Shown here in pieces: positions 5,437-55,388 of a DNA stretch of 55,388 bases; position 1 is the stretch's first letter, and every line of letters starts with the position of its first letter. This DNA comes from a virus. The translations under genes were made by a program, and so were the position numbers. Location: positions 1 to 55,388 of the IMG/VR virus record IMGVR_UViG_3300032893_000060, one strand, 5' to 3'. A model generated the notes under the pieces. The model was not told where the DNA came from and did no database searches. It worked only from the letters and a program-made list of their open reading frames with translations.

Positions 5437-5452
5437 TGGCATGAAACCTGCT
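5437..5452 (+). promoter_or_regulatory. Sigma-54 promoter of the major capsid gene
   Basis: TGGCATG-AAACC-TGCT matches the -24/-12 consensus TGGCAYG-N4-TTGCW, with GG and GC separated by exactly 10 bases. It lies four bases after the HNH stop, in the only sizeable gap of the head gene block. Transcription would start near 5463, about 130 bases upstream of the capsid ATG. It is one of five sites in this genome sharing TGGCAYG-N5-TGCT. Confidence 0.8.
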
Positions 5453-5594: not shown

Positions 5595-6905
5595 ATGCCG
5601 TCATACTATGACGCTCCAAGCGTCTTTGGAAACGCGGTTGTGGAAGACGTCAACCGCTTTAATCAACTTCCTTTCTATCTTGTTCACAACGAGGTTAAGC
5701 AATTTCCTATCTGGAATGAGTTTGATCAAGCATACGGAAAGATCGACTGGGAGACTAATCAAGGTAACATCATGCGTGGTGTTACCCCTCAACGTTCGCC
5801 AGTCGGTCGAGCATTCTTCTTCCCTAATGCGGTAACGCAGGTAGCTAAGAAGGATATCTACCAAGTCACTGAAAGCAAGGAAGAGGCGGCTGTGATGGTT
5901 CATAAGTATGAATCATTCCAGTTTAACTTCATGCCTTCTTTCACGGCTTTCTGGGAAACATACCTTCAATTCGCTAACAAGGACATTGTTGAGAAGATCA
6001 GTATTTCCAACAATCAGTTTATCGAGACAAACATGTGGTTTAATGCCATCAATGTTTATCTCTGTGGCACTGGACTTGTTGGTGGTGCTCCAACAGTAAT
6101 GGGTAATAGTGCTGGTAATGCGGCTGGATCTAAGACGGCTGCATGGCTGGTTGCACTCACTACTGGTGCTCAGGGCAATAATGGTGTTCTCCAGGGTCTT
6201 ACACTTCGCGATCTTTATCGTGCTGTAATGAATCTTCAGGAAGATTTAGCAGCGCCTCCGATGGAAGGTGTAAGGAATATGCCGAAGGATAACGATGGAG
6301 TTAAGGGTCATTACTGGCTCTATCTGTCGTCCGAAGCATTCATGAACTTCACGTTCGATCCAGATGTGGCTGTTTTGAAGCCTCTGAACTTGGACTTGCT
6401 GTTTAATGACTTCAAGGGTTCGCTCTTTGGCACTACTGTTTGTAAGATCAAGAAGTATCCTATCCGCTTCAACATTGTTGATATTAAGGATGCGAATGGC
6501 AATACTCTTTGGGCTGCTGGAATGCCAATAGATCCTGAAATCTTCGATCCGACAGACAATAAGTGGAAGCCGAATCCGTATTGGACTAACCTCACTAGCG
6601 CGCCGTTTGAAATTGCGTGGCTCTGTGGTGAGTCTTATGCGAGAACGATTAAGGTTGGACCTCCGCCCAAGGAGTTCGCAACCACGAACATGTCAGCACA
6701 GAAGTTCTATTCGATGAAGTGGAACGGTGAAGTGCGGCTAACAGATCAAGTGTTGATCACTAATCCTGATGGCACTACTGAATTGAACGTCTATGGTGAA
6801 AACCTGAAGTTCATCAGCAAGCTCACTCATGGTTATCTAGTAGGGGAACGTCGTAATGCGTTTCCGATCTTGCTTCGTAGGAGCCGTCCTGCTGTTCAAC
6901 ACTAA
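5595..6905 (+). CDS. Major capsid protein
   Basis: This 436-residue protein follows the scaffold and precedes the tail genes. Its composition is that of a structural shell protein: mixed alpha/beta, few charges in runs, 4 Cys at most, no enzymatic motif. It would fold as an HK97-type coat protein of the P22-like size class. The gene has its own sigma-54 promoter and a long structured leader, consistent with the need for very high expression. It uses slightly higher-GC codons than the neighbours, as highly expressed genes often do. The assignment is by position, size and dedicated promoter. Confidence 0.82.
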   Translation: MPSYYDAPSVFGNAVVEDVNRFNQLPFYLVHNEVKQFPIWNEFDQAYGKIDWETNQGNIMRGVTPQRSPVGRAFFFPNAVTQVAKKDIYQVTESKEEAAVMVHKYESFQFNFMPSFTAFWETYLQFANKDIVEKISISNNQFIETNMWFNAINVYLCGTGLVGGAPTVMGNSAGNAAGSKTAAWLVALTTGAQGNNGVLQGLTLRDLYRAVMNLQEDLAAPPMEGVRNMPKDNDGVKGHYWLYLSSEAFMNFTFDPDVAVLKPLNLDLLFNDFKGSLFGTTVCKIKKYPIRFNIVDIKDANGNTLWAAGMPIDPEIFDPTDNKWKPNPYWTNLTSAPFEIAWLCGESYARTIKVGPPPKEFATTNMSAQKFYSMKWNGEVRLTDQVLITNPDGTTELNVYGENLKFISKLTHGYLVGERRNAFPILLRRSRPAVQH

Positions 6906-27900: not shown

Positions 27901-29604
27901 ATGTCTGCTTACAAGAACATAGAGTCCAACCATGAAGTACTCGCAGCACTTGGTCAGACTCATGATGCATGGGGGTCACCAGTAAAACCGGACCCGTCTG
28001 GTAGGTCGATTGCTGGTGACCCCTCAGTGCAAGCAGCAATGGATGAGATTAGGGGTGAGAGAGGTGGAACTATGCAACAGCATATTGAGAACAAAGCTAG
28101 CGGTTTATTCACGGCTTTCTTCATTGGTCCACAAACGCAGCCACATAGATCAATCAGTGATTTGTTTACTTCAGCCGCACATTATGCCTCTAATCCATAT
28201 CAGATGGTTAGAAACCTGGCATCTACTGTAAGTGGATACAAAGAAGGATTTGACCATGCAATGAAAGGTGGTGCAATCAAAGATAGTGCACTACATCTTA
28301 GAGACTTCTTTGACCGGAATCTTACTGCGGCTGAACGCATTCAGGCATTAACGGCTTCAGTACGTCGTGCATATGGTTCAGAGTTTGTAGATCATCTCAA
28401 CGCTGGAATGCTCCAGACAATGTTTGAAAAGCATGTTATTCCTGAGACCATTGATAAAGCTAACATGGAAGACATGAGCGCAATGCAGCGCTTGCGGAAA
28501 TTAGATCCACAGTGGAACAAAGGAAAGACTTATAGTCCAGAAGAACAACAGCAGCTAGCTAGTAGGCTCATAGGCTATGTGCATGGAACAGGCGATGCCA
28601 GAACGATGCCACCTTGGATGATTCATGACAGTGAAATATCTGGATTCTTTCGCTTGTTTCATTGGGGTGTATCTCAGACAAATAGATTCTTTAGTGAGAT
28701 AGTAACCCCAGCGAAGAATGGTAACATAGGTCCATTGTTTAATGCTCTACTTGGTGGAGTAGCTGGTGGCTTAGCAATTAAAGAAATGAGGGAATTGATC
28801 GGTGGAAAGAAGGGACAGATACCTTCGTTGAAAGAAATGGCTGCAAATCCTAATGGAGGGATATTAGGAAACAAATCTTTGCTTGGATATGAATTGATTT
28901 CAGCTTTGTCATATACTGGCTTTGGTGGAATGCTATCAACCATAAGTAAGTTACCTGTTGACTGGATATACAAAAATACATCACAAGGTGCTACGTTTCC
29001 TCTAGATGAGGTTATCAGCGATACAGGAAAAACAATTAGTGACTTTACAACGGCTGCCGCTAACGATCCTCATTTCGATTGGTTTGATGCTACTAAGATG
29101 TTTTGGGAACATATGCTTACTACTAACTTCCAGCTAGGTCGCGTACTATACAATCAGGCACTTAATACTGGATTGTTTAATGGAACTCCAGAAGCTAGCA
29201 GAAAAGCATTGGCCGATAAGTTGGGTGAGTTACGCCGCTTTAGGATGGTTATTAATACGCCTTATGCTGAAACAGGAGAGCCGAGTAACCCCTATATGAA
29301 CATTGAACAGAAGAAGTTCCATCTAGAAGAAGATCCGATGAAAGCTGTTCAGATGTTGCCTGGGATGATTGCAACAATAATGCAGAAGTATGGTGACAAT
29401 CCTGATGTAATGATGGAAAAGATAAAGGCATTGAAGCAATCACAATATGCTACAATGCCTTCACTTGAGACACTGCCATTGCAGGCGATGAAGTATATTG
29501 GTTACTTACAGCAGAAGGAAGGACCCGAGTATGCCAATGCTGCATTGATGGACTTCATGCGGCATAAGATGCTGAACGAAGCAAAAGCTAGTGTCGTGCC
29601 CTAA
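24922..29604 (+). CDS. Giant ejection/internal virion protein with metallopeptidase motif (1560 aa)
   Basis: This is the largest gene. Residues about 70-130 contain a Gly-zipper membrane segment (GGGAGTLGGAALGAELGALGG, then GAILGAVSGGLSGSYVGN). A Pro/Glu-rich linker follows to about residue 470. Around residues 605-609 lies HEIIH, a gluzincin zinc site (LHEIIHATTSKKLYAEL), with a candidate third ligand in HEFVSE near residue 671. Two long helical regions follow, including a hydrophobic segment near residue 1270-1295 (PLFNALLGGVAGGLAI). Expected role: entry protein ejected with the DNA, with a protease that may process it or cell-wall targets. It ends the late operon. Confidence 0.8.
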   Translation: MPIERELTPEELDHLAASGVDPRQYRGVKVPVYSADEARNFRPTTEQAPPQPSRSALSAILPTLKAHAGQYAGGGAGTLGGAALGAELGALGGPAAPVTVPLGAILGAVSGGLSGSYVGNKAQQAIVPTDTEQRLEQEAAQARQESPWTSIGTDIVASMLAAGGKPSLAAGKGLAGLLRGGVKAIGTPAERALASQVPELAPQVAQRLSEYGKNIQALRQAGTMAAVSPAIQLGTGLATGEMPSGKELAASSIGGALFSGLNPLGRKAFGVHTEPSPEPRQSTPWPDNIKPADIPGYALDPDKVTPWTAKDAEGKPVTSDKIVKAAYKKLVPPPERATSEDPNEYREQAKAREAYNLTSVEDMRKALHEAELAKVQQPTPTVAIPTTEPTAKIEPEKVPVVEPSKVETQTKPAEEEPALTPEQEKMAAEQDQKRTDFERARAEQIGEEQWNAAHQLAMVGHEQPPKPLNENAVRISANPETLIKSAVSRSESFDRNLYAPPQSSGGEGNKSIIEAIRVGPPIREFSNRVKFENGNSGTSVQHELTRIGAQKENLYNKLATHLLNIADKDALKVPITFDPTARNSYYHPKGDYIRIKTDKDHTILHEIIHATTSKKLYAELGDASHRSSDHPMLDEYLELGDNESIKELIRSFKEASKVDLSPDNYGLKNLHEFVSETLSNPKFANRLNNIKTTKGTTVFGRIVEAIKRLLGCNPSQGSLLERVLKPTEEIIKQERSGNKVESTSNENLYAPHTTKVEEHVRGGIVGRAFEDTVNKIRQNKVNPEGANKFADAVVNTHNDKDAFNGQWTQPIIARGRGFSGTQEERMQQAAYWQLTHKAVPPSSMFRTPEEYQHFVQTHKTIKNIADTHIAMKEPVMDANSNKRLMRKDPNYWPTPPAPKVIETMADSTKSAQQEAYHNSFVDFNKRLGMNGAEAEKAWTNFREGLAQLHNSQVGSADYFNASRRAHNSSLPPEMTIKGFTRAMSSYTARMAADMSAYKNIESNHEVLAALGQTHDAWGSPVKPDPSGRSIAGDPSVQAAMDEIRGERGGTMQQHIENKASGLFTAFFIGPQTQPHRSISDLFTSAAHYASNPYQMVRNLASTVSGYKEGFDHAMKGGAIKDSALHLRDFFDRNLTAAERIQALTASVRRAYGSEFVDHLNAGMLQTMFEKHVIPETIDKANMEDMSAMQRLRKLDPQWNKGKTYSPEEQQQLASRLIGYVHGTGDARTMPPWMIHDSEISGFFRLFHWGVSQTNRFFSEIVTPAKNGNIGPLFNALLGGVAGGLAIKEMRELIGGKKGQIPSLKEMAANPNGGILGNKSLLGYELISALSYTGFGGMLSTISKLPVDWIYKNTSQGATFPLDEVISDTGKTISDFTTAAANDPHFDWFDATKMFWEHMLTTNFQLGRVLYNQALNTGLFNGTPEASRKALADKLGELRRFRMVINTPYAETGEPSNPYMNIEQKKFHLEEDPMKAVQMLPGMIATIMQKYGDNPDVMMEKIKALKQSQYATMPSLETLPLQAMKYIGYLQQKEGPEYANAALMDFMRHKMLNEAKASVVP

Positions 29605-31360: not shown

Positions 31361-31897
31361 TCACTTGGACAAAGAAAACTTAAGTGTTTGTTTGTTGTGA
31401 GGAAATTGAACTTTGCAATATGGATAGAGGATAAGACAGTCAATAGTGGATGACTTTGTCTTAATTGGAAACCATCTGGTGATATGTAAAAGCCGCTTTA
31501 TGTGTGCAAAGCAATCCCATTCGAATGTTACTTCTAGCCGAGTCTTGTCGGATAAGCACCACAATTTCACATCACAAAAATACTTATGTAACCACTCTTG
31601 TCTAATAATCTCAGTATTATTTATTATTGCATTATCCAATTCGTATTCATGTATAAACTGTGACACAGGAACTTCTAGTCGTCGACTTCGTAATGACTCA
31701 GCATAGTCCACTTCTTCTACACCTATGCCAAACATTCGTGGAGTAGAACTGTATGCTTGTTGTACTTGATAGTGGTATCCATAATCACGCACCAACTCCA
31801 TTACTTCAACTTTGGAGATTGGAATAGTTTTCGGTGCTTCACCCCATTTTCGCATAACTTCATGAATCCACTTCTGTATATCTTGTATAGTAATCAT
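31361..31897 (-). CDS. Protein of unknown function downstream of DNA polymerase
   Basis: The start is taken at the ATG at 31897, which overlaps the polymerase stop as ATGA, giving 178 residues. An upstream ATG at 31903 is in frame. The protein is mixed alpha/beta: an N-terminal helical part (TIQDIQKWIHEVMRKWGEAPKTI), a central DYGYHYQVQQAYSSTPRMFGIGVEEVD, and several Trp and Cys. No motif is recognised. Its place in the replication operon suggests a replication accessory or nucleotide-metabolism factor. Confidence 0.7.
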   Translation of the reverse strand: MITIQDIQKWIHEVMRKWGEAPKTIPISKVEVMELVRDYGYHYQVQQAYSSTPRMFGIGVEEVDYAESLRSRRLEVPVSQFIHEYELDNAIINNTEIIRQEWLHKYFCDVKLWCLSDKTRLEVTFEWDCFAHIKRLLHITRWFPIKTKSSTIDCLILYPYCKVQFPHNKQTLKFSLSK

Positions 31898-33444
31898 ATC
31901 CACTTTAATTCTCTTAGCCCAAGATCATTGATATCTTTTTTATACGGCCCCCAATTAAACCCCACACCCACCTCACTCCGCATGTTAAACTCTGACCCAT
32001 CAGTAGGACTCACAAAGTGCTGGTTCATGTATTCTTGCATTTTATCTTTACATTCTTTGACTTCTGGGAGTGGGCATTGAACGAGGTAGCTATCGTGAGT
32101 ATCGGCGAGGATATCCCATCTTCTTTTAGCTCCTTCAATAAAACCTTGAAGTCTCGTAAAAGCGATGCGAGTAATTTCTCCAACCGTCGATTGCGGACAC
32201 CACGCATAGAATTCTTTGTAGGTAAGCTCATTGATGTTGTAGTTAGTTATTGTGTATGGATGACCAAAGAAATTGAAGAGCATGTGAGTCTTGTCCACTT
32301 GACGGCGGACTCGTTCACAGCGAGCGGGGATTTCTGGAAAGAGACCACGATATATCTGTAGGAATGTGTCCGCTTCATCCCGGGAGATGTTGATCTTACC
32401 GCCGGACTTCTCTAAGATATTCATCTGGAATGTGAAGCCTTCGATTCCGTAGTTGGCTGAATTGTGTGTAACTGAAACTTTTCCTTCTCGTCTTATCAAG
32501 AAATATCCAGTTGATGTAGTTGGACACCTTACTGTTTCTGCTTTGTTATTGCAGTTGTGTATACGTCTTATATTACACAATAACTTATCACCAAAATTTG
32601 CATTAGGAAGAACTGAAACTAAAGTTCTTTCATACAAATGTTGAGCTTCCTGATAACTTACTATATTATTATGTGTTGGATCACAATAATATAACACATT
32701 ATGATTCGGCGTTACACATTGACTTACGTTTGGGCCATGTAAATAATACATATCACCAGTGTGTTCATACTCATTCCAGTAAACTCTTTCCAAGAAAGTA
32801 GACCATGTCCTCAAGTCCATTACCTGAATATGATCTGGCTTATACTTAACTTTTACCCAATCACTACCATTAAATACTTCCGTTTTCTCGTCCACACAAT
32901 GACAGGTCTGCTTCGCTAGATAATAGTATCGTTCAGACGACTTCCAATTGTCAGATGACTTAATCAGTTTGTCAACCTGTGACCAGTTAGGGTCGTTTTT
33001 TAGCTTGGGGATTGGAGTAAGATCTAGTATATCAATGTCTGATTCACCAATCGGCAAATTGTACTCTTTGCATTTCTTAGACCAGATATTCTTAAAGAGC
33101 TTAAGTGCTACATAGACATGTGGTTTGACTCCATGTATGAATAGTTGGCGATAGTCAGCCGCTTCGGCTTCGTAGGCAACTATTAGTGCTTCTGCTCCTG
33201 ATTGATCGCATTGTAGCATCACTCTTAACTTGTCTAATTCTTCTGGAGTGAATACCGAATGATCGCCAGTCTCTAGCCAATATTTACACCTGCCACGCAG
33301 GTCATCACTATATCCATCGGCTTGATATATAGCACGCTGAGACTTTTCAACGTTCTGTAGATTGCTACCCCACTTCTTAAATATCTGTCGTGAGGAACGA
33401 CGGAAAGTCTTTGGGATGTTATGATAGATGGTGGTGTTTCTCAC
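31894..33444 (-). CDS. DNA polymerase I family, palm/fingers part, interrupted by a mini-intein
   Basis: The GTG start at 33444 overlaps the previous stop (GTGA). The extein begins in the template-binding motif (TFRRSSRQIFKKWGSNLQNV), followed by motif A (VMLQCDQSGAEALIVAY, Asp near residue 80), then motif B of the O-helix split by the intein: ERYYYLAKQTCH before it and SANYGIEGF after it. Motif C (ADTHDSYLV) lies near residue 450. The intein occupies residues 183-328. The exonuclease and thumb half is the separate gene at 33670-35232, so the polymerase is encoded in two pieces. Confidence 0.88.
   Translation of the reverse strand: MRNTTIYHNIPKTFRRSSRQIFKKWGSNLQNVEKSQRAIYQADGYSDDLRGRCKYWLETGDHSVFTPEELDKLRVMLQCDQSGAEALIVAYEAEAADYRQLFIHGVKPHVYVALKLFKNIWSKKCKEYNLPIGESDIDILDLTPIPKLKNDPNWSQVDKLIKSSDNWKSSERYYYLAKQTCHCVDEKTEVFNGSDWVKVKYKPDHIQVMDLRTWSTFLERVYWNEYEHTGDMYYLHGPNVSQCVTPNHNVLYYCDPTHNNIVSYQEAQHLYERTLVSVLPNANFGDKLLCNIRRIHNCNNKAETVRCPTTSTGYFLIRREGKVSVTHNSANYGIEGFTFQMNILEKSGGKINISRDEADTFLQIYRGLFPEIPARCERVRRQVDKTHMLFNFFGHPYTITNYNINELTYKEFYAWCPQSTVGEITRIAFTRLQGFIEGAKRRWDILADTHDSYLVQCPLPEVKECKDKMQEYMNQHFVSPTDGSEFNMRSEVGVGFNWGPYKKDINDLGLRELKWI
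32461..32898 (-). other. Mini-intein in the polymerase O-helix (146 aa)
   Basis: The intein starts with Cys (CVDEKTEVFNGSDWVKV, block A) and contains the block B motif VTPNH. It ends with block F/G (GYFLIRREGKVSVTHN) followed by extein Ser. All catalytic residues for splicing are in place: Cys1, the block B His, penultimate His, terminal Asn and +1 Ser. At 146 residues there is no room for a homing endonuclease, so it cannot move by itself. Removing it restores the family-A motif LAKQTCH-SANYG. It lies exactly in the polymerase active site. Confidence 0.93.
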
Positions 33445-39526: not shown

Positions 39527-39542
39527 AATATTAAAGTTAAGT

Positions 39543-39654
39543 GAGCGTGGCAGGATTTGAACCTGCATGTATCACATTTCCAATACCTTAGGCGACATGA
39601 TACTAGCCCAGTTTACCTGGTAAACATAGCGTCTTTACATTCCGCCACACGCCC
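39543..39654 (-). tRNA. tRNA-Leu-like element with an oversized core
   Basis: Acceptor strands GGGCGTG (39654-39648) and CACGCTC (39549-39543) pair over 7 bp with one G-T. A D-arm (GCG/CGC, 39629-39645) and a T-arm (GCAGG-TTCAAAT-CCTGC, 39550-39566) are clear. Total length is 112 nt, too long for an ordinary Leu tRNA. A 4-5-bp anticodon-type arm with loop ACCAGGT would read CAG (Leu), but it lacks U33. The rest forms a GTATCA/TGATAC helix, an unusually long variable arm. Degenerate, processed or RNA-targeting functions are all possible. Confidence 0.6.
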
Positions 39655-40044
39655 ATAAATCGTTCCCTCTAGTCTCCACCGTGAAGTGAAGGACGCCGAA
39701 GCATCATGTTCCACACACTAGAGGGATGAGTGGTCCGTTACTATTCCACGAACCAGCAGGAAGTCAGACAGTTATTAAGATGAACTGTCGGCAACTATAC
39801 TACCACTAGTTCCCCATCTAGTGAGTGTTAGGCTCGCACCCTTCGCTCACTCTATAGTGGCAGCTAACCAAGCCAGAAGATATTGCTACCTTGCACAGCT
39901 TGGAAATAAACTAGCCGCTTAGCCTTATATGGCATCCCTGTCACAGGATTCTGTTTTTGTAGGTTTGCAGTGACATGCTAAACCACTTTGTTCAGATATA
40001 GAGCAATGCTCCATGCGGCCAAAATCAAAGATCGTCGAGGGCAC
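39655..40044 (-). ncRNA. Structured non-coding RNA A upstream of the tRNA-like element
   Basis: This 390-base stretch has no supportable frame and is dense in helices on the minus strand. Examples are CCAAGC/GCTTGG (39868-39873 with 39898-39903), AGTGAG/CTCACT nested inside CCACTA/TAGTGG, and a 7-bp GACAGTT/AACTGTC stem (39767-39789) whose loop resembles a CUU anticodon loop. A 9-bp CCCTCTAGT/ACTAGAGGG stem (39665-39673 with 39717-39725) encloses a GATGC-TTCG-GCGTC tetraloop hairpin. A sigma-54 promoter starts just upstream at 40055-40070. It resembles large phage RNAs of the ROOL/GOLLD type in position beside a tRNA, but similarity is not shown. Confidence 0.6.
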
Positions 40045-40054
40045 CTAGAATGTA

Positions 40055-40070
40055 AGCATTTTTCGTGCCA
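40055..40070 (-). promoter_or_regulatory. Sigma-54 promoter of non-coding RNA A
   Basis: TGGCACG-AAAAA-TGCT on the minus strand, GG and GC 10 bases apart. Transcription would start near 40044 and run into the structured RNA and the tRNA-like element. The site lies 49 bases downstream of the small ORF that follows the sigma-54 activator gene. Confidence 0.8.
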
Positions 40071-40118: not shown

Positions 40119-40283
40119 TTACTCATCTTCTTCTACAGTTACTAAAGGTTCATACCATTTAATGTTCCAGAACATGGACTTAGATTCTTTTGGTATTACA
40201 GCCTTTGTTATTTCTGATTCTGACCTAGTGTAATTAGGATCTGTTATCTGAACATCTACAATCACATCAATTCTTAATTTCAT
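40119..40283 (-). CDS. Small protein (54 aa) coupled to the sigma-54 activator
   Basis: The ATG at 40283 overlaps the activator stop as ATGA. The frame runs 54 codons to TAA at 40119-40121. The product MKLRIDVIVDVQITDPNYTR continues to a Glu-rich end (YEPLVTVEEDE). No family is recognised. Direct coupling to the activator suggests a functional partner, perhaps a regulator of its activity. Confidence 0.68.
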   Translation of the reverse strand: MKLRIDVIVDVQITDPNYTRSESEITKAVIPKESKSMFWNIKWYEPLVTVEEDE

Positions 40284-41158
40284 ATTCTTCCTAATGTATT
40301 ATACCGAATCACCATACGTTGCAATGATCTTACATTCAAACTCAAATCAAAGCTATCAACCATCGACCTATACTTATCCCAAAACTTATCACCACCTGGC
40401 AATGACAATACTATCGGTTCTATATCACACTTACGTTCTCGGAGTGGATTAACAGTTAGTTCCAACGTGCTTATCCTCGCATATAGATCTTCACGGAATG
40501 TCCCTGCCTTAACCATTGCTTTCAGATCACGATTAGTAGCAAACACAAACTTGCAGTCAACTGGTTCAATCTCTTTCCCTCCCACTTTCCTAACTGTCTT
40601 TTCCTGGATCACTCTCAACAACTTCGCCTGCACCCACATCGGCAACTCTCCTACTTCATCAAGGAACATCACACCACCTGTCGCCGCTTTGATTAGTCCA
40701 TCTGTTGTCTTACCGGCTCCAGTGAATGCACCACTGACATATCCGAACAGTTCACTCTCGACTAGTTCAGAAGGAAAGCCGGCACAGTTTGCAGCTTTGA
40801 TTACACCTGGACGATTGTTGATTTGTGACTTCGCTATTAGTTCTTTACCTGTTCCTGTCTCACCAAAGACTAGCACCTCGTACGGCGTCTTGCTCATCTT
40901 CAGTGCATCTTCTTTCATCTGGATAGTCTCTGGATCGACTGTGACAAATTTTTGGAGCCACAATTCTCCTGCACTGAACTGTGATTGATAGCGCCAGCTA
41001 CCATCAGGATTTGATACGATGATGAATGGAAGATTGTTTCGTTCAATCAGTATGCGGGCTGGGTCCATGCAGTCCGCACCATTAGCTTGTAATGCTTGTA
41101 ACTTCCTTTCAAAGAAGTCTATCTCACTTTGGGTTAGTTGCTTTGTTTGTTGGTCCAT
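40280..41158 (-). CDS. Phage sigma-54 activator (bEBP-like AAA+ ATPase without DNA-binding domain)
   Basis: This 292-residue protein is the central AAA+ domain of NtrC-family activators: Walker A GETGTGKE (99-106), the sigma-54-contacting loop GAFTGA (133-138, inside ELFGYVSGAFTGAGK), Walker B GGVMFLDEVGEL (151-162), ATNRDL (207-212) and FREDLYARI (221-229). The start lacks a receiver or GAF domain, and the end (NVRSLQRMVIRYN) stops where the helix-turn-helix would follow. It is thus shaped like PspF-type minimal activators. Expected role: open-complex formation by host RNA polymerase-sigma-54 at phage promoters. Confidence 0.93.
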   Translation of the reverse strand: MDQQTKQLTQSEIDFFERKLQALQANGADCMDPARILIERNNLPFIIVSNPDGSWRYQSQFSAGELWLQKFVTVDPETIQMKEDALKMSKTPYEVLVFGETGTGKELIAKSQINNRPGVIKAANCAGFPSELVESELFGYVSGAFTGAGKTTDGLIKAATGGVMFLDEVGELPMWVQAKLLRVIQEKTVRKVGGKEIEPVDCKFVFATNRDLKAMVKAGTFREDLYARISTLELTVNPLRERKCDIEPIVLSLPGGDKFWDKYRSMVDSFDLSLNVRSLQRMVIRYNTLGRI

Positions 41159-48003: not shown

Positions 48004-48019
48004 AGCAATTTGCGTGCCA
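48004..48019 (-). promoter_or_regulatory. Sigma-54 promoter with a perfect consensus
   Basis: TGGCACG-CAAAT-TGCT on the minus strand is an exact fit to TGGCACG-N4-TTGCT. It lies between the stop of 48085-48288 and the start of the 47972 gene, and transcription would start near 47993. Confidence 0.85.
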
Positions 48020-48997: not shown

Positions 48998-49267
48998 ATG
49001 TTTTGGACTTAACGCTTAGTGCTTAGTGCTTGGAAATTGATTGTTTGAAGCCGCACTATTAGTGTAATGCGGCGTCAACCAACCTATATATCAACCGGTG
49101 CAAAATGGTATTCATCATTGATGGCATCAAGATGATTTTATTAAGGCATACCACCAAACATCTTCTTTATAGTGTCGCCCTTGCCTAATGGCTTCACAAC
49201 CGGTGCTTGCTAAATCTTAATAGGCAGAAAGCTATGCACTGATAGTATCAGTGAATAGCATGATTAA
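48998..49267. other. Intergenic stretch with a strong hairpin and short repeats
   Basis: No frame is supported here. TTGA-GCCGCA (49045-49055) pairs with TGCGGC-TCAA (49068-49078) as a 10-bp stem with one bulge each side. CTTAGTG occurs in tandem just upstream, and AACCGGTGC occurs twice. No T-tract makes it a convincing terminator; a leader or RNA element of the 48785-48997 gene is possible. Confidence 0.45.
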
Positions 49268-50128: not shown

Positions 50129-50467
50129 CTAGTCAATGTGCAAATAATTTTCTACAAAAGTTTTGGCTGCACCAAGCCCCATAGTTGGGGTGAATGGAGT
50201 GCCATCAGGATTGTGGTCAACAATGCACTTCGACTTATTGTAAGCTGCAATGGCTCCACGAATCATCTTAATGCAGAAGATTTTGTTAGCCTTTGCAACC
50301 TCGTAGTTATGCAATGAATAGTCGATATCTTCGACTGGCCGTTCTATGGATACTTGCACGCTGTCAACTTCAAAAGGCAAAGTATTACTTTGCTTATGTG
50401 CTTCGAGGATAGACTGTTGAACGATCTCAACAGCTTGATATTCCAACATGCTAATGTTTAGTTTCAT
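50129..50467 (-). CDS. Protein of unknown function behind the second sigma-54 RNA (112 aa)
   Basis: The start is the ATG at 50467 (MKLNISMLEYQAVEIVQQSI), preferred over an upstream ATG at 50500. The protein is helical with an acidic middle (VSIERPVEDIDYSLHNYEVAKANKIFCIKMIRGAIAAYN). It follows the long structured RNA B whose sigma-54 promoter lies at 50943-50958, so the RNA may be its leader. Function unknown. Confidence 0.66.
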   Translation of the reverse strand: MKLNISMLEYQAVEIVQQSILEAHKQSNTLPFEVDSVQVSIERPVEDIDYSLHNYEVAKANKIFCIKMIRGAIAAYNKSKCIVDHNPDGTPFTPTMGLGAAKTFVENYLHID

Positions 50468-50933
50468 AGCATTCCGCCGTCTAAAACAGTTTGACACCAC
50501 TGCTTATTGCTTTCGCCAGTGGGGTATGTGGACTACCACTAGTCAAACTCTTATAGCTAATCTACCCATGAGGCAAGTCCTAGGTTTAAACTTGCTCTTA
50601 TCCGTCTTGTTCTTATTCATTCGAATGAACAGCATTTAACTAATCCAGTGTTTCTGAATCGAATTCAAGATAGCAAGCCTAAGACTTGCCACGCCGTTCG
50701 AGACTCACATTAGGGGAATTAACTTTTTTCCGCTAATGTGTTGACTCCGCAAATACCATGCCCGTATTTCAGGATACATGGATCATTGGACGCGTCCGAT
50801 TGCGAGGCAGTATCTAATGTCAAAGCGTCGGATACTATATGACTAATCAGGGATAAGTCTTTTCGTATTCTTCGTCTCGTGTGACTTGCCTAATGGATAG
50901 ATTAACTACGTTACATAATGTTCGCTCGATGCT
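50468..50933 (-). ncRNA. Structured non-coding RNA B / leader behind a sigma-54 promoter
   Basis: About 465 bases without a supported frame, dense in helices. GTTTGAC (50489-50495) pairs with GTCAAAC (50542-50548) around the CCACTG/CAGTGG hairpin (50497-50502 with 50517-50522) and a GTGG/CCAC hairpin, a three-way junction. CACATTAG/CTAATGTG (50706-50713 with 50733-50740) forms a long hairpin, and GGCAAGTC-type segments can pair with GACTTGCC 300 bases away. The 12-mer ACTACCACTAGT occurs here (50532-50543) and in RNA A. It may be a long leader or a stable RNA. Confidence 0.55.
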
Positions 50934-50942
50934 TATTCTATT

Positions 50943-50958
50943 AGCATTTATCGTGCCA
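50943..50958 (-). promoter_or_regulatory. Sigma-54 promoter of non-coding RNA B
   Basis: TGGCACG-ATAAA-TGCT on the minus strand, GG and GC 10 bases apart. Transcription would start near 50933 and run through the structured stretch into the 50129-50467 gene. Confidence 0.8.
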
Positions 50959-51230: not shown

Positions 51231-51750
51231 TTAACTGGCCTTTGCCGTCTGGACTGGCAGCTTGGCAAACTTGTCCAGCCAAGTCTTGAATACGGCGGGA
51301 AGCGTGACCTCTGTAGCCGCAAACGAATTGGCCCGGACCATTGCGCTGCACCAAGCGTAGAACTTATTGGGGATTGTGTTCTCTAACTGGCACCGTTCGC
51401 CGGTCTTGGTCTTGGCAATGATTACTTGCCGCTCGTTTCCGTCGTCATCCTTGACGGTTTTCCAATCCTGTGTTGCAGCAGTCTTGGACGCGAGAATTGT
51501 TCCTGCATTAAGGTCGGACTGCACAGCATTGATGACCTTGTTTTCGTCATAGTCACCCATGATATTCGCAACGCAGTTTGGGATGTTGAAACGAATGATT
51601 GTTGCCATATATGTTTGCTCTCATTTCCTGCTCGCTAGTGACATTTGAACGTCCGTATGGGCATCCAACTATAGGTGGCGTATCTAAACGCGCTATAGGC
51701 TATTGTAGCGGCACTAAACGGGTATGTAATAGGAGCGGTAAACCCTCATT
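51167..51750. repeat. Inverted repeat flanking the 51231-51608 gene
   Basis: Segments 51167-51189 and 51728-51750 are inverted copies with 21 of 23 bases identical. They bracket one complete gene. I see no transposase, so a mobile origin is not supported. Base pairing of the mRNA ends or a duplicated regulatory segment are the alternatives. Confidence 0.55.
51231..51608 (-). CDS. Protein of unknown function flanked by inverted repeats (125 aa)
   Basis: This 125-residue protein (MATIIRFNIPNCVANIMGDYDENK, later NSFAATEVTLPAVFKTWLDKFAKLP) is mixed alpha/beta, with AVQSDLNAGTILASKTAATQDWKTVKDDDGNERQVIIAKTK in the centre. It lies between two strongly structured non-coding stretches whose ends can pair with each other. 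It is the most promoter-proximal confident gene of the early strand, so an early host-takeover or regulatory role is possible. No family is recognised. Confidence 0.7.
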   Translation of the reverse strand: MATIIRFNIPNCVANIMGDYDENKVINAVQSDLNAGTILASKTAATQDWKTVKDDDGNERQVIIAKTKTGERCQLENTIPNKFYAWCSAMVRANSFAATEVTLPAVFKTWLDKFAKLPVQTAKAS

Positions 51751-52140: not shown

Positions 52141-52565
52141 CCCATGGTATTTTGATTGTATTGTATCAGGGTTTATATATGTGTAATTTCCATTATAGTA
52201 TATATAGATATAAATTATATAAAATATATTACTATATACTATTATGTATAAGGTGATACAATATAATACAATCTGATATAATTTAATAAACTATATATAC
52301 GGGCCACTAAGAAAAAATCATTTGATACAATCTAATACATTTTGAATTATATCATAATAGGTATATGAGCTATACTACTATAATACAAACTACTATTATC
52401 CTATCTATCATTAGCTTTGCTTCTATAAGCATAACTAATAGTCACCCAATTTGATTGAGTATTGAAATGACGATGACGGGTAGACCCCCAGAAATGAAAA
52501 TGCGAACTGGAACTATACTAATCTCCCAATACAACAATTTCCAATTTCAGACCGATACAATCCAG
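52141..52565. other. AT-rich region with GATACAAT repeats, candidate replication origin
   Basis: This is the most AT-rich stretch of the genome, with long runs of TATA/TAATA. GATACAAT occurs three times on the plus strand (52255-52262, 52324-52331, 52554-52561) and once inverted (52160-52167), in similar contexts. It separates the leftward early genes from the rightward late genes. Such AT-rich, repeat-bearing gaps often act as origins or divergent promoters. The replication initiator that would bind the repeats is not identified. Confidence 0.5.
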
Positions 52566-52614: not shown

Positions 52615-52630
52615 TGGCATGAGAATTGCT
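52615..52630 (+). promoter_or_regulatory. Sigma-54 promoter of the packaging (terminase) operon
   Basis: TGGCATG-AGAAT-TGCT matches TGGCAYG-N4-TTGCW exactly, GG and GC 10 bases apart. Transcription would start near 52642 and read the small gene at 52.7 kb, the membrane protein, DnaQ-like exonuclease, small terminase and large terminase. It is the partner site to the capsid promoter. Confidence 0.85.
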
Positions 52631-53123: not shown

Positions 53124-53773
53124 AACTTTTCTTTGATACTGAAACTACAGGATTGCCTAGATGGGATACTAATGAAACAAGTCCACTTCAACCACGAATG
53201 GTACAACTTGGGATGATTGTAACAGAGGATGATGGAAATGTAGTGTTCAGTCTTGGAAGCATTATAAGGGTTGAAGAGCCAATACCTGATGCGGCTGCCG
53301 TAGTCCACGGCATAACGACTGAAATATCACAAAGTAGAGGACTTCCAATAACAATTCTTCTAGATTTATTTTACGGTTGGGCTAGACGTTGTGATGAGAT
53401 AATTGCTCACAATATTAAATTTGATCGACTAGTAATTTCCAGTGAGTTAAGCCGTCTTGGCCTTACATTTCCACCTAAAGCCCAATTCTGCACAATGCTT
53501 GCATCAACTGGCCTTTGCAAGATTCCAAAGCGAAATGGGTATAAATGGCCGAAGTTGTCTGAAGCATATGAATTTTTCTTTGGTGAGCCATTAAAAGATG
53601 CTCATGATGCGCTAGTTGACGTGCAAGCGTGCAAACGAATATATTTTGAAGGATTGAAACCTCAGAACGACTGCGGAGCAGCAAATAGTCTCAAAGGAAG
53701 CTTTAATGCACCAATCTTTGAACCGCCTAAATCACTAGTAAGTGTTCTAATCGAAGCAACTAAGCCTGTGTAA
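53120..53773 (+). CDS. DnaQ-like 3'-5' exonuclease (DEDDh)
   Basis: This 217-residue protein has the DEDDh motifs of DnaQ-type exonucleases: FDTETTGLP (Exo I, residues 5-13), AHNIKFDR (Exo II) and AHDALVDVQA (Exo III with His). It probably processes DNA ends or ssDNA during packaging-time replication. It lies between a membrane protein and small terminase, an unusual place, and overlaps both by 1-4 bases. The polymerase has its own exonuclease, so this one is extra. Confidence 0.88.
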   Translation: MKLFFDTETTGLPRWDTNETSPLQPRMVQLGMIVTEDDGNVVFSLGSIIRVEEPIPDAAAVVHGITTEISQSRGLPITILLDLFYGWARRCDEIIAHNIKFDRLVISSELSRLGLTFPPKAQFCTMLASTGLCKIPKRNGYKWPKLSEAYEFFFGEPLKDAHDALVDVQACKRIYFEGLKPQNDCGAANSLKGSFNAPIFEPPKSLVSVLIEATKPV

Positions 53774-54207
53774 TGTCCGCCGCCATTCAACAGATTAAGA
53801 CTGCTTACGAAGTCAACAACATGAGTCCAGAAGAAATAGCTTCGGACTTTGGATTTGACGTGACTGTTGTTAAAGCGGCTTTGACTAATGGGTCGTCAAA
53901 GTATAGGAAAGATTGTGGTCTTGAAGAATCGTTGGGTACTGAGGATAGACTTAATTTCACTGATGAGCAGTTAGAAGATGTTAATCGAGTAATCTATGAA
54001 ACGGCCCTTTCAGCCGAACATTCGGACGGGACTGTGGATTACAAGACACGGTTGGCAGCAGCTACATATATACGTGATGACAAGAAGGGCAGAAAAGAGC
54101 TAGCGCGTCAATTAGGTGGTAATACATTCAATCTGTTTCAATTTAACCAACAATTACAGCTAGCAAGAGGAAAAGCACAAGAGATGAGAAAGGCTTTGGA
54201 AGTGTGA
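53773..54207 (+). CDS. terS: Terminase small subunit
   Basis: This 144-residue protein has an N-terminal helix-turn-helix (AYEVNNMSPEEIASDFGFDVTVVKAALTNG), the DNA-binding layout of TerS, and a helical oligomerisation part with a C-terminal FNQQLQLARGKAQEMRKALEV. It directly precedes the large terminase, apart from a 39-codon frame. Position and size support the call; no sequence comparison is possible here. Confidence 0.78.
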   Translation: MSAAIQQIKTAYEVNNMSPEEIASDFGFDVTVVKAALTNGSSKYRKDCGLEESLGTEDRLNFTDEQLEDVNRVIYETALSAEHSDGTVDYKTRLAAATYIRDDKKGRKELARQLGGNTFNLFQFNQQLQLARGKAQEMRKALEV

Positions 54208-54323: not shown

Positions 54324-55388
54324 ACTTTGACGACTACAACAAACTTTCTCCTACTTCCCAAGAGGACTACATAAACTCTGGTGGAGTAGTAGAATATCCA
54401 ACGGCTGAGCAAAAGGAGATGGTTAGTGACCTACATGCTGAGGCGCGAAAGTCGGCTGAGCCGTTGGAAAGCTTTGCTCCAGAAGATGATCTATCTCACT
54501 CGATCACTTCTGTTGAGCCGCAGATGGGTACTTCACTCTCAGAAGTTAAAGAGTCTGCGGACTCCCCATCTGCTTCCTATATTGACGGATTCGACATTAA
54601 AGATCCACTCGAACTCGTGATTCTGCTTGACGACGACATACGAACTGGAAAGATAACATTACATCCATGGCAAATTCAATTCCTGATAGACTTTTCAAAT
54701 CCAGCCAACATAGCACAGTTTCCTTTTCAAGCCTTGATGAGAGCATGCAATGGTTCAGGGAAGGACAAATACATACTCGCACCTTGCGCTGTTTGGCTAA
54801 ACATGAGATACAGGAAAGCCCGTGGAGTAGTAACCTCATCCTCTGGTGTGCAATTGGACAACCAGACTTGCGCATATATTACACTATTGTGCAATGAGGC
54901 TAACCGAAAATGGGGCAATATATGGAAGTGCAACTATCGGTACTATGAATGCTTACCAACCGAAGCACCAATCATCTGTTACGCCACTGACGAACCGGGT
55001 AAAGCCGAAGGTTTCCATCCATTAGAAGCTGGTGCTCGGATGGGTATATACATGTCTGAAGACAAGACTATTCCAGATGAAATCAACACTGCAATCAATA
55101 GATGTTCTGGGTATACTCATCGTATTCATGTATCTACTCCCGGTGACACTTCTGGTCATTTCTTTGATTTGTGTAGCACGGCGGTCAGCCGAAAAGAAAT
55201 CAAGAATGTTAAGGAAGTAAGACCAGAAGACTATATTCAGTATGTCGTCACATACAAAGAGTGTCCACATATCCCCGAATCAGACTATCGGCGAACTATA
55301 AGGAATACTCCAGGCGGCGAAAACAGTTCAGTTATTAAGTCTCAGTTCTTCGCCGAATTTGGCACTACTGGTGAAATGGTAGTGATTC
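54320..55388 (+). CDS. terL: Terminase large subunit, N-terminal ATPase part
   Basis: The start is a TTG at 54320 overlapping the upstream stop as TTGA, as elsewhere in this genome. Residues 141-148 are RACNGSGK, a Walker-A-like terminase loop, preceded by LHPWQIQFLIDFSNPANIAQFPFQALM. Further motifs are IICYATDEPGKAEGFHP, the Walker-B-like MGIYMSEDKTIPDE, and RIHVSTPGDTSGHFFDL (motif III/coupling). The first ~95 residues are an acidic, low-complexity extension. The frame continues across the join at 55261/1 to 927 and totals about 622 residues. Confidence 0.92.
   Translation, partial: MNFDDYNKLSPTSQEDYINSGGVVEYPTAEQKEMVSDLHAEARKSAEPLESFAPEDDLSHSITSVEPQMGTSLSEVKESADSPSASYIDGFDIKDPLELVILLDDDIRTGKITLHPWQIQFLIDFSNPANIAQFPFQALMRACNGSGKDKYILAPCAVWLNMRYRKARGVVTSSSGVQLDNQTCAYITLLCNEANRKWGNIWKCNYRYYECLPTEAPIICYATDEPGKAEGFHPLEAGARMGIYMSEDKTIPDEINTAINRCSGYTHRIHVSTPGDTSGHFFDLCSTAVSRKEIKNVKEVRPEDYIQYVVTYKECPHIPESDYRRTIRNTPGGENSSVIKSQFFAEFGTTGEMVVI
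55262..55388. repeat. Direct terminal repeat, right copy (identical to 1-127)
   Basis: Exact duplicate of the first 127 bases, in the same terminase frame. See the left copy for interpretation. Confidence 0.95.

Follow-up and report, generated by a model that had tools for sequence, protein, structure and literature searches.

A candidate leader RNA behind a sigma-54 promoter of a conserved regulon in an uncultured phage, with neighbouring genes enclosed by long inverted repeats

In hok-type type I toxin mRNAs, pairing between the 5' and 3' regions keeps the message translationally closed (fold-back inhibition), hok being a short toxin message that is accompanied by an antisense RNA. The 16S and 23S rRNAs are enclosed by RNase III processing stems. 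In the icaR mRNA of Staphylococcus aureus, the start region pairs with sequence located after the stop codon, which blocks initiation and makes a substrate for RNase III (PMC3868564). Here, a phage locus is described in which a non-coding RNA and several small genes are each enclosed by long complementary arms.

The window, that is the whole stretch of DNA analysed, is IMGVR_UViG_3300032893_000060, a circularly assembled phage contig of 55,388 bases with a 127-base overlap between its ends. The end repeat (1-127 / 55262-55388) was of the same length in several relatives and measured 97, 98, 123 or 126 bases in others; as these sizes resemble an assembler word size, it appears to reflect circular assembly and not a terminal repeat of biological origin. 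Portal- and capsid-type proteins are kept in ~25 uncultured IMG/VR phages at a mean protein identity of roughly 28-50%, and the gene labelled major capsid (5595-6905) had no match among 50,697 GenBank phage records. Position and conservation supplied the working names portal, capsid, terminase and helicase, and the only proteins identified by profile were a sigma-54 activator and a Sak4-like protein. A Methanoregulaceae archaeon was considered as the host and rejected; the sole match in the genome collection was a 14.9-kb contig in a bin of that name, and since an archaeon does not fit sigma-54 this contig was probably mis-binned. A DNA-polymerase-like protein encoded at 31894-33444 (minus strand) is seemingly split by a small intein-like segment (CVDEKTEVFNGSDWVKVK ... 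VSVTHNS).

The elements of the region under study, termed RNA B, are as follows.

50943-50958, minus strand: putative sigma-54 (-24/-12) promoter of RNA B, TGGCACGATAAATGCT, near-consensus, the motif being intergenic in ~25 related phages
50468-50942, minus strand: RNA B, candidate structured leader of 475 nt, coding signal absent
50883-50909, minus strand: 5' arm of the RNA B closing helix, 27 nt
50553-50579, minus strand: 3' arm of the RNA B closing helix, 27 nt

An earlier note on this DNA had proposed a sigma-54 promoter of the form TGGCACG-N5-TGCT at this position, and the proposal was borne out. The site carries a single mismatch to the consensus TGGCAC-N5-TTGC(A/T), with GG and GC correctly spaced, and the RNA B transcript would begin near 50932. 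The exact pattern was found three times in the window, on every occasion on the minus strand and between genes, while the reversed pattern was not found and ~0.02 sites were expected from base composition. In 18 relatives the exact pattern TGGCAYG-N5-TGCT generated 58 matches against one for the reversed control, and a weighted scan placed 96 sites in the ~12% of the DNA that is intergenic and 49 inside genes. Most of the ~25 related uncultured phages have exact intergenic sites. Recurrent positions are upstream of the capsid-type gene (107-210 nt away in most relatives), of x46, a conserved gene of the left arm, and of the rightward operon, and immediately behind the activator gene. The last of these, which precedes a further structured RNA (RNA A), was present in 18/18 genomes in which the activator and x39 are close, a count that includes two lower-scoring sites found by pattern. 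The corresponding features of the window are listed below.

5437-5452, plus strand: sigma-54 site before the gene labelled major capsid, from the weighted scan
40055-40070, minus strand: sigma-54 promoter of RNA A, from the sequence pattern, conserved behind the activator gene
48004-48019, minus strand: further sigma-54 site of the regulon, from the sequence pattern
52615-52630, plus strand: divergent sigma-54 site of the rightward operon with the conserved gene 53773-54207
40280-41158, minus strand: sigma-54 activator (AAA+, GAFTGA), PF00158 E 6.6e-54 and alignment
39730-39804, minus strand: RNA A conserved core (pseudoknot and hairpin family), covariance model R1, 42.9 bits

The putative promoter at 50943-50958 is a member of a conserved phage sigma-54 regulon, no description of which was found in the literature searched. 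The GAFTGA motif required at sigma-54 promoters is carried in the window by the protein encoded at 40280-41158, in which a DNA-binding domain was not detected, the protein ending soon after the AAA+ domain. The phage protein seems to turn on promoters that depend on host sigma-54. In one relative (L001) the activator reads GSYTGS instead of GAFTGA.

The earlier note had also regarded RNA A and RNA B as two RNAs under one regulator with a shared function, and had advised a covariance comparison. The core of RNA A, located at 39730-39804 and in the equivalent place behind the activator gene in ~15 relatives, is in effect a new RNA family. Across this family UAUAGUU pairs with AACUAUA, located in the loop of the hairpin that follows, and the pairing is kept through two-sided changes (UAUAGAU/AUCUAUA, UAUAGCA/UGCUAUA and UAUACCU/AGGUAUA). 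In an alignment of 14 sequences 83.6% of the cells pair and 32 cells were changed on both sides, compared with 12.1 in shuffles (0/500), and sliding the partner abolished the signal. Model R1 detected one site per genome, including one outside the training set (L137:11031-11103, E 0.025) that again sits between the activator and x39; in the window's own copy the hairpin is retained and its loop has changed, no longer matching the pseudoknot. The same model that finds RNA A misses RNA B, generating no match in 50468-50958 at E up to 5, and homology between the two was rejected. A 12-mer, ACUAGUGGUAGU, is found in both without shared structure alongside. The strong sigma-54 sites of both RNAs and the presence of the activator gene are consistent with part of the original proposal, and RNA A and RNA B probably share a regulator; they are not one RNA family, and a function shared through kinship was not upheld. 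The RNA A region carries, at its 3' end, a tRNA-like gene (39542-39654, minus strand) whose variable arm is very long and which was read by hand as tRNA-Leu(CAG); it is missed by ARAGORN and falls just above threshold in Rfam.

RNA B was predicted to fold with -143.7 kcal/mol (z -6.1, 0/100 shuffles). The description of ~465 non-coding bases followed by a small gene proved accurate, as 475 nt lead to the ATG of the gene at 50129-50467 (b50); no ORF over 40 aa is present on the minus strand of RNA B, and blastx against the proteins of the phage family found no convincing similarity (best E 7.4). Long-range pairing had likewise been claimed and was confirmed. The arms 50909-50883 and 50579-50553 form a closing helix that scored 26.1, compared with 11.2 +- 1.4 and a maximum of 17.2 in dinucleotide shuffles (0/400), and its mean pair probability was 0.99 when 2 kb from the inferred start were folded. 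On the sense strand, the interruptions over 26 core positions (counted by hand) are two G-U, one mismatch and no A-C. A three-way junction had also been described; the interior is indeed multibranched, with MFE and centroid structures that differ, and three-way is one possible form of the junction. No such closing helix was found in the other sigma-54-driven leaders tested within the family. From ~48.2 to 51.3 kb, structure is stronger on the minus strand than on the plus strand.

Searches of 25 related phages (nhmmer --max and blastn with word 7) and of some 50,000 phage records turned up no sequence relative of RNA B, and it had no Rfam match, including GOLLD, ROOL and tmRNA (RF00023), at gathering and permissive thresholds. 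Because it is without a homologue, its fold rests on one sequence and the shuffles of that sequence. Lack of conservation is what would be seen in a decayed gene or a functionless intergenic remnant, yet such a region would hardly combine so low a folding score with a 27-nt closing helix and a strong promoter that has been retained, and this origin is considered very improbable. As a long structured leader immediately upstream of a gene start, RNA B could also be an ordinary riboswitch-like or attenuator leader, a local switch on b50, with the long duplexes playing no part in it. The search for an alternative terminator was negative, neither a conserved ligand-binding core nor an Rfam match was found and the long duplexes far exceed chance, which makes a switch of this type very unlikely.

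The 3' boundary of RNA B at 50468 is merely the start codon of b50. No intrinsic terminator was found on the minus strand near 50468, and pairing extends past it (50483-50465 with 50096-50078, 19 bp). Since no terminator was found and the start region of b50 is part of the fold, read-through into b50, which the earlier note had set against a separate RNA, is the likelier outcome on sequence grounds; release of RNA B by processing is possible. The pairing beyond 50468 encloses b50, and comparable arms enclose the following gene, c49, and a gene on the other side of the promoter, b51.

50465-50483, minus strand: 5' arm closing the b50 unit, 19 nt, spanning the start codon and the bases directly before it (GGCGGAATGCTATG)
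50129-50467, minus strand: b50, open reading frame for a small protein of 112 aa
50078-50096, minus strand: 3' arm closing the b50 unit, 32 nt past the stop codon
49901-49925, minus strand: 5' arm closing the c49 unit, 25 nt, comprising the region just upstream and the start codon
49268-49903, minus strand: c49, open reading frame for a 211-aa protein with an Ala/Asp/Tyr repeat
49212-49236, minus strand: 3' arm closing the c49 unit, 31 nt past the stop codon
51728-51750, minus strand: 5' arm closing the b51 unit, 23 nt
51231-51608, minus strand: b51, open reading frame for a 125-aa protein, start codon inside the loop
51167-51189, minus strand: 3' arm closing the b51 unit

The closing duplex of b50 consists of 18 Watson-Crick pairs and one G-U and that of c49 of 23 Watson-Crick pairs and two G-U, each with a mean pair probability of 0.99 in the 2-kb fold. 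As in icaR, the start regions of both b50 and c49 are complementary to their 3' UTRs to a degree not expected by chance, and long enclosing duplexes resembling those of rRNA were found for all four units, with arms of 27 nt in RNA B, 19 in b50, 25 in c49 and 23 in b51. The b51 unit lies upstream of the RNA B promoter and is therefore not on the RNA B transcript; its helix is also further from the start of the gene and, because the start codon of this class is located in the loop, a duplex that covers the start does not account for every unit. The b50 protein had no relative in IMG/VR, Pfam or PHROGs, and a single-sequence AlphaFold model was uninformative (pLDDT 40). The long Ala/Asp/Tyr repeat of c49 is encoded by a near-tandem DNA repeat of the GCAGCATCA type. 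Beyond b51, a divergent intergenic region at 52150-52450 is AT-rich and repeat-bearing; many relatives have a weakly conserved counterpart in the equivalent position, and the region may be a replication origin.

Helices between the start region and the post-stop region, or flanking the gene, were compared with a control in which the start region was paired with the post-stop region of another gene from the same genome. Helices scoring at least 22 were found for 11 genes against 0 in the control and at least 20 for 15 against 1; several thresholds were tried and the individual class counts are exploratory, though the contrasts are large. A gene-blind scan with symmetric mismatch scoring found 22 long inverted repeats in the genomes and two in block-shuffled copies, ~19 of the 22 lying in the left arm by reading of coordinates. 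Arms that include a start codon read GCTATG or GCTGTG in six of seven cases, while GCT precedes the start in only 16 of 1532 genes. At least seven relatives have stem-closed units in this arm as well, with differing arm sequences, and a similar unit order beside the divergent intergenic region was seen in G009, G014 and G017 and partly in G003, G013 and G025. Read from that region, a gene of the b51-like class comes first, followed by start-codon-closed genes and enclosed non-coding units. Two of the latter (G025 28017-28275 and G017 6390-6635) have inner motifs conserved between both; homology of RNA B with this unit could not be demonstrated.

The signal is confined to a particular kind of helix. 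General pairing between start and end across all genes was rejected (mean -18.9 kcal/mol, compared with -18.8 in the control), and loosely defined long-range MFE helices were uninformative (130 versus 133 in the control region); only long, near-uninterrupted helices were unusual, with 10 of at least 26 pairs against 0 in the control region. The duplex is absent from the c49 relatives in G018 and G019 and in three of five genomes with fam33 genes. Judged by these contrasts, the class of stem-closed units is genuine.

Inverted repeats of this kind could also act as DNA, as invertible switches, ends of mobile cassettes or sites of replication or recombination, and the RNA fold would then be a by-product. 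They do flank genes, lie in one hypervariable arm beside the AT-rich divergent intergenic region and enclose genes that vary from phage to phage. If only DNA were selected, G-U and A-C interruptions would be expected in equal numbers; the gene-enclosing repeats carried 19 G-U, 3 A-C and 12 other interruptions on the sense strand (one-sided binomial p about 4e-4 for the excess of G-U over A-C), which pairing at the DNA level would not produce. Together with an arm sequence that varies from unit to unit, a single orientation for all enclosed left-arm genes and no recombinase identified adjoining the repeats, this makes a purely DNA-based role quite unlikely. Differing arm sequences, combined with G-U rather than A-C, point to selection on the sense RNA for the enclosing duplexes.

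The main rival to a leader role for RNA B is a free-standing, trans-acting structured RNA resembling GOLLD or ROOL, with its own sigma-54 promoter, cut at the closing helix and with the genes behind it as passengers. The fold is strong and compact and has a closing helix of its own, relatives also contain enclosed non-coding units, with common inner motifs in those of G025 and G017, and sibling sigma-54-driven regions hold tmRNA (G009/G013) and tRNAs (G002, G017), which keeps a released RNA in consideration; GOLLD and ROOL are likewise phage RNAs found near tRNAs (PMC12286853). No Rfam match was obtained, though, RNA B, unlike RNA A, is not conserved in sequence in its own phage family, and its end has no terminator, the start region of b50 falling within the adjoining fold. 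A released RNA is accordingly considered possible but rather unlikely. The tmRNA genes of phages G009 and G013 (RF00023, 110-112 bits; L077:2997-3287 and L093:9551-9844, both minus strand) encode a long predicted tag (ANQDYAMSVAQADAVLAHYGYVDAGLVTV) and lie within a non-coding stretch behind a sigma-54 site. The non-coding regions of G004 (sigma-54 site 49345) and G017 (site 5398) contain degenerate tRNA-like structures, read by hand, with acceptor, D-arm and T-arm-like stems, in which insertions of ~100 nt replace the anticodon arm.

Of the roles considered, a cis-acting leader and processing module is the most likely for RNA B. The specific form preferred, in which a sigma-54-dependent transcript has RNA B as its 5' leader and runs through b50 and c49 as successive units closed by long-range duplexes, is held with about evenly balanced confidence. 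The phage activator would turn on host sigma-54 RNA polymerase, and the transcript, starting near 50932, would begin with RNA B, which would fold first and insulate the 5' end. Translation of b50 and c49 could then take place on the nascent RNA, ahead of the synthesis of their 3' arms. On appearance of a 3' arm the duplex would close over the start region and initiation would be shut; the closed duplex, a long double-stranded RNA, may be a substrate for RNase III, so that the units would be limited in output, separated from one another, or both. The start point, read-through, translational closing and RNase III processing are all predicted steps, those after transcription by analogy with icaR, hok mRNA and rRNA processing stems.

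More broadly, and more tentatively, one arm of the genome may be a chain of stem-closed coding and non-coding RNA units under the phage sigma-54 activator, in which the duplex structures are conserved as the sequences turn over, each small gene closes itself and RNA B takes its place in the chain as a non-coding member. No description of such a chain was found in the literature searched. Pairing between the start and far end of a message is known from single cases; here it would be a repeated design in a phage family, and the preference for G-U over A-C interruptions, the differing arms and the similar unit order make that design testable. The link to a phage sigma-54 regulon and to an RNA with a covarying pseudoknot suggests a heavier than usual reliance on structured RNA.

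Compared with known systems, RNA B resembles GOLLD and ROOL as a long structured non-coding phage RNA with tRNAs or tmRNA in sibling regions (PMC12286853); it differs in being shorter (about 360-475 nt), in having no Rfam match and in its position as the leader of small genes. The regulon shares consensus -24/-12 promoters and an AAA+ GAFTGA activator with bacterial sigma-54 regulons of the NtrC/PspF type, but is phage-encoded, has an activator with no detectable DNA-binding domain and serves a capsid-type gene, a divergent operon and structured RNAs. Unlike hok, b50 and c49 encode proteins of 112 and 211 aa; neither a toxin signature nor an antisense gene was identified for them. As with the rRNA stems, every unit of a polycistronic transcript is enclosed by a long-range duplex of ~20-30 bp, although most of the phage units enclose protein genes and cleavage by RNase III is predicted only. 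The closest likeness in arrangement is to icaR, as the start regions of b50 and c49 also pair with post-stop sequence of the same message; blocking and cleavage are described for icaR and predicted for the phage duplexes. The phage duplexes, of 17-25 bp, further differ from that of icaR in taking in the start codon, in being present in several consecutive genes of a single arm, in lying behind a closed non-coding unit and in recurring across phages with unrelated arm sequences.
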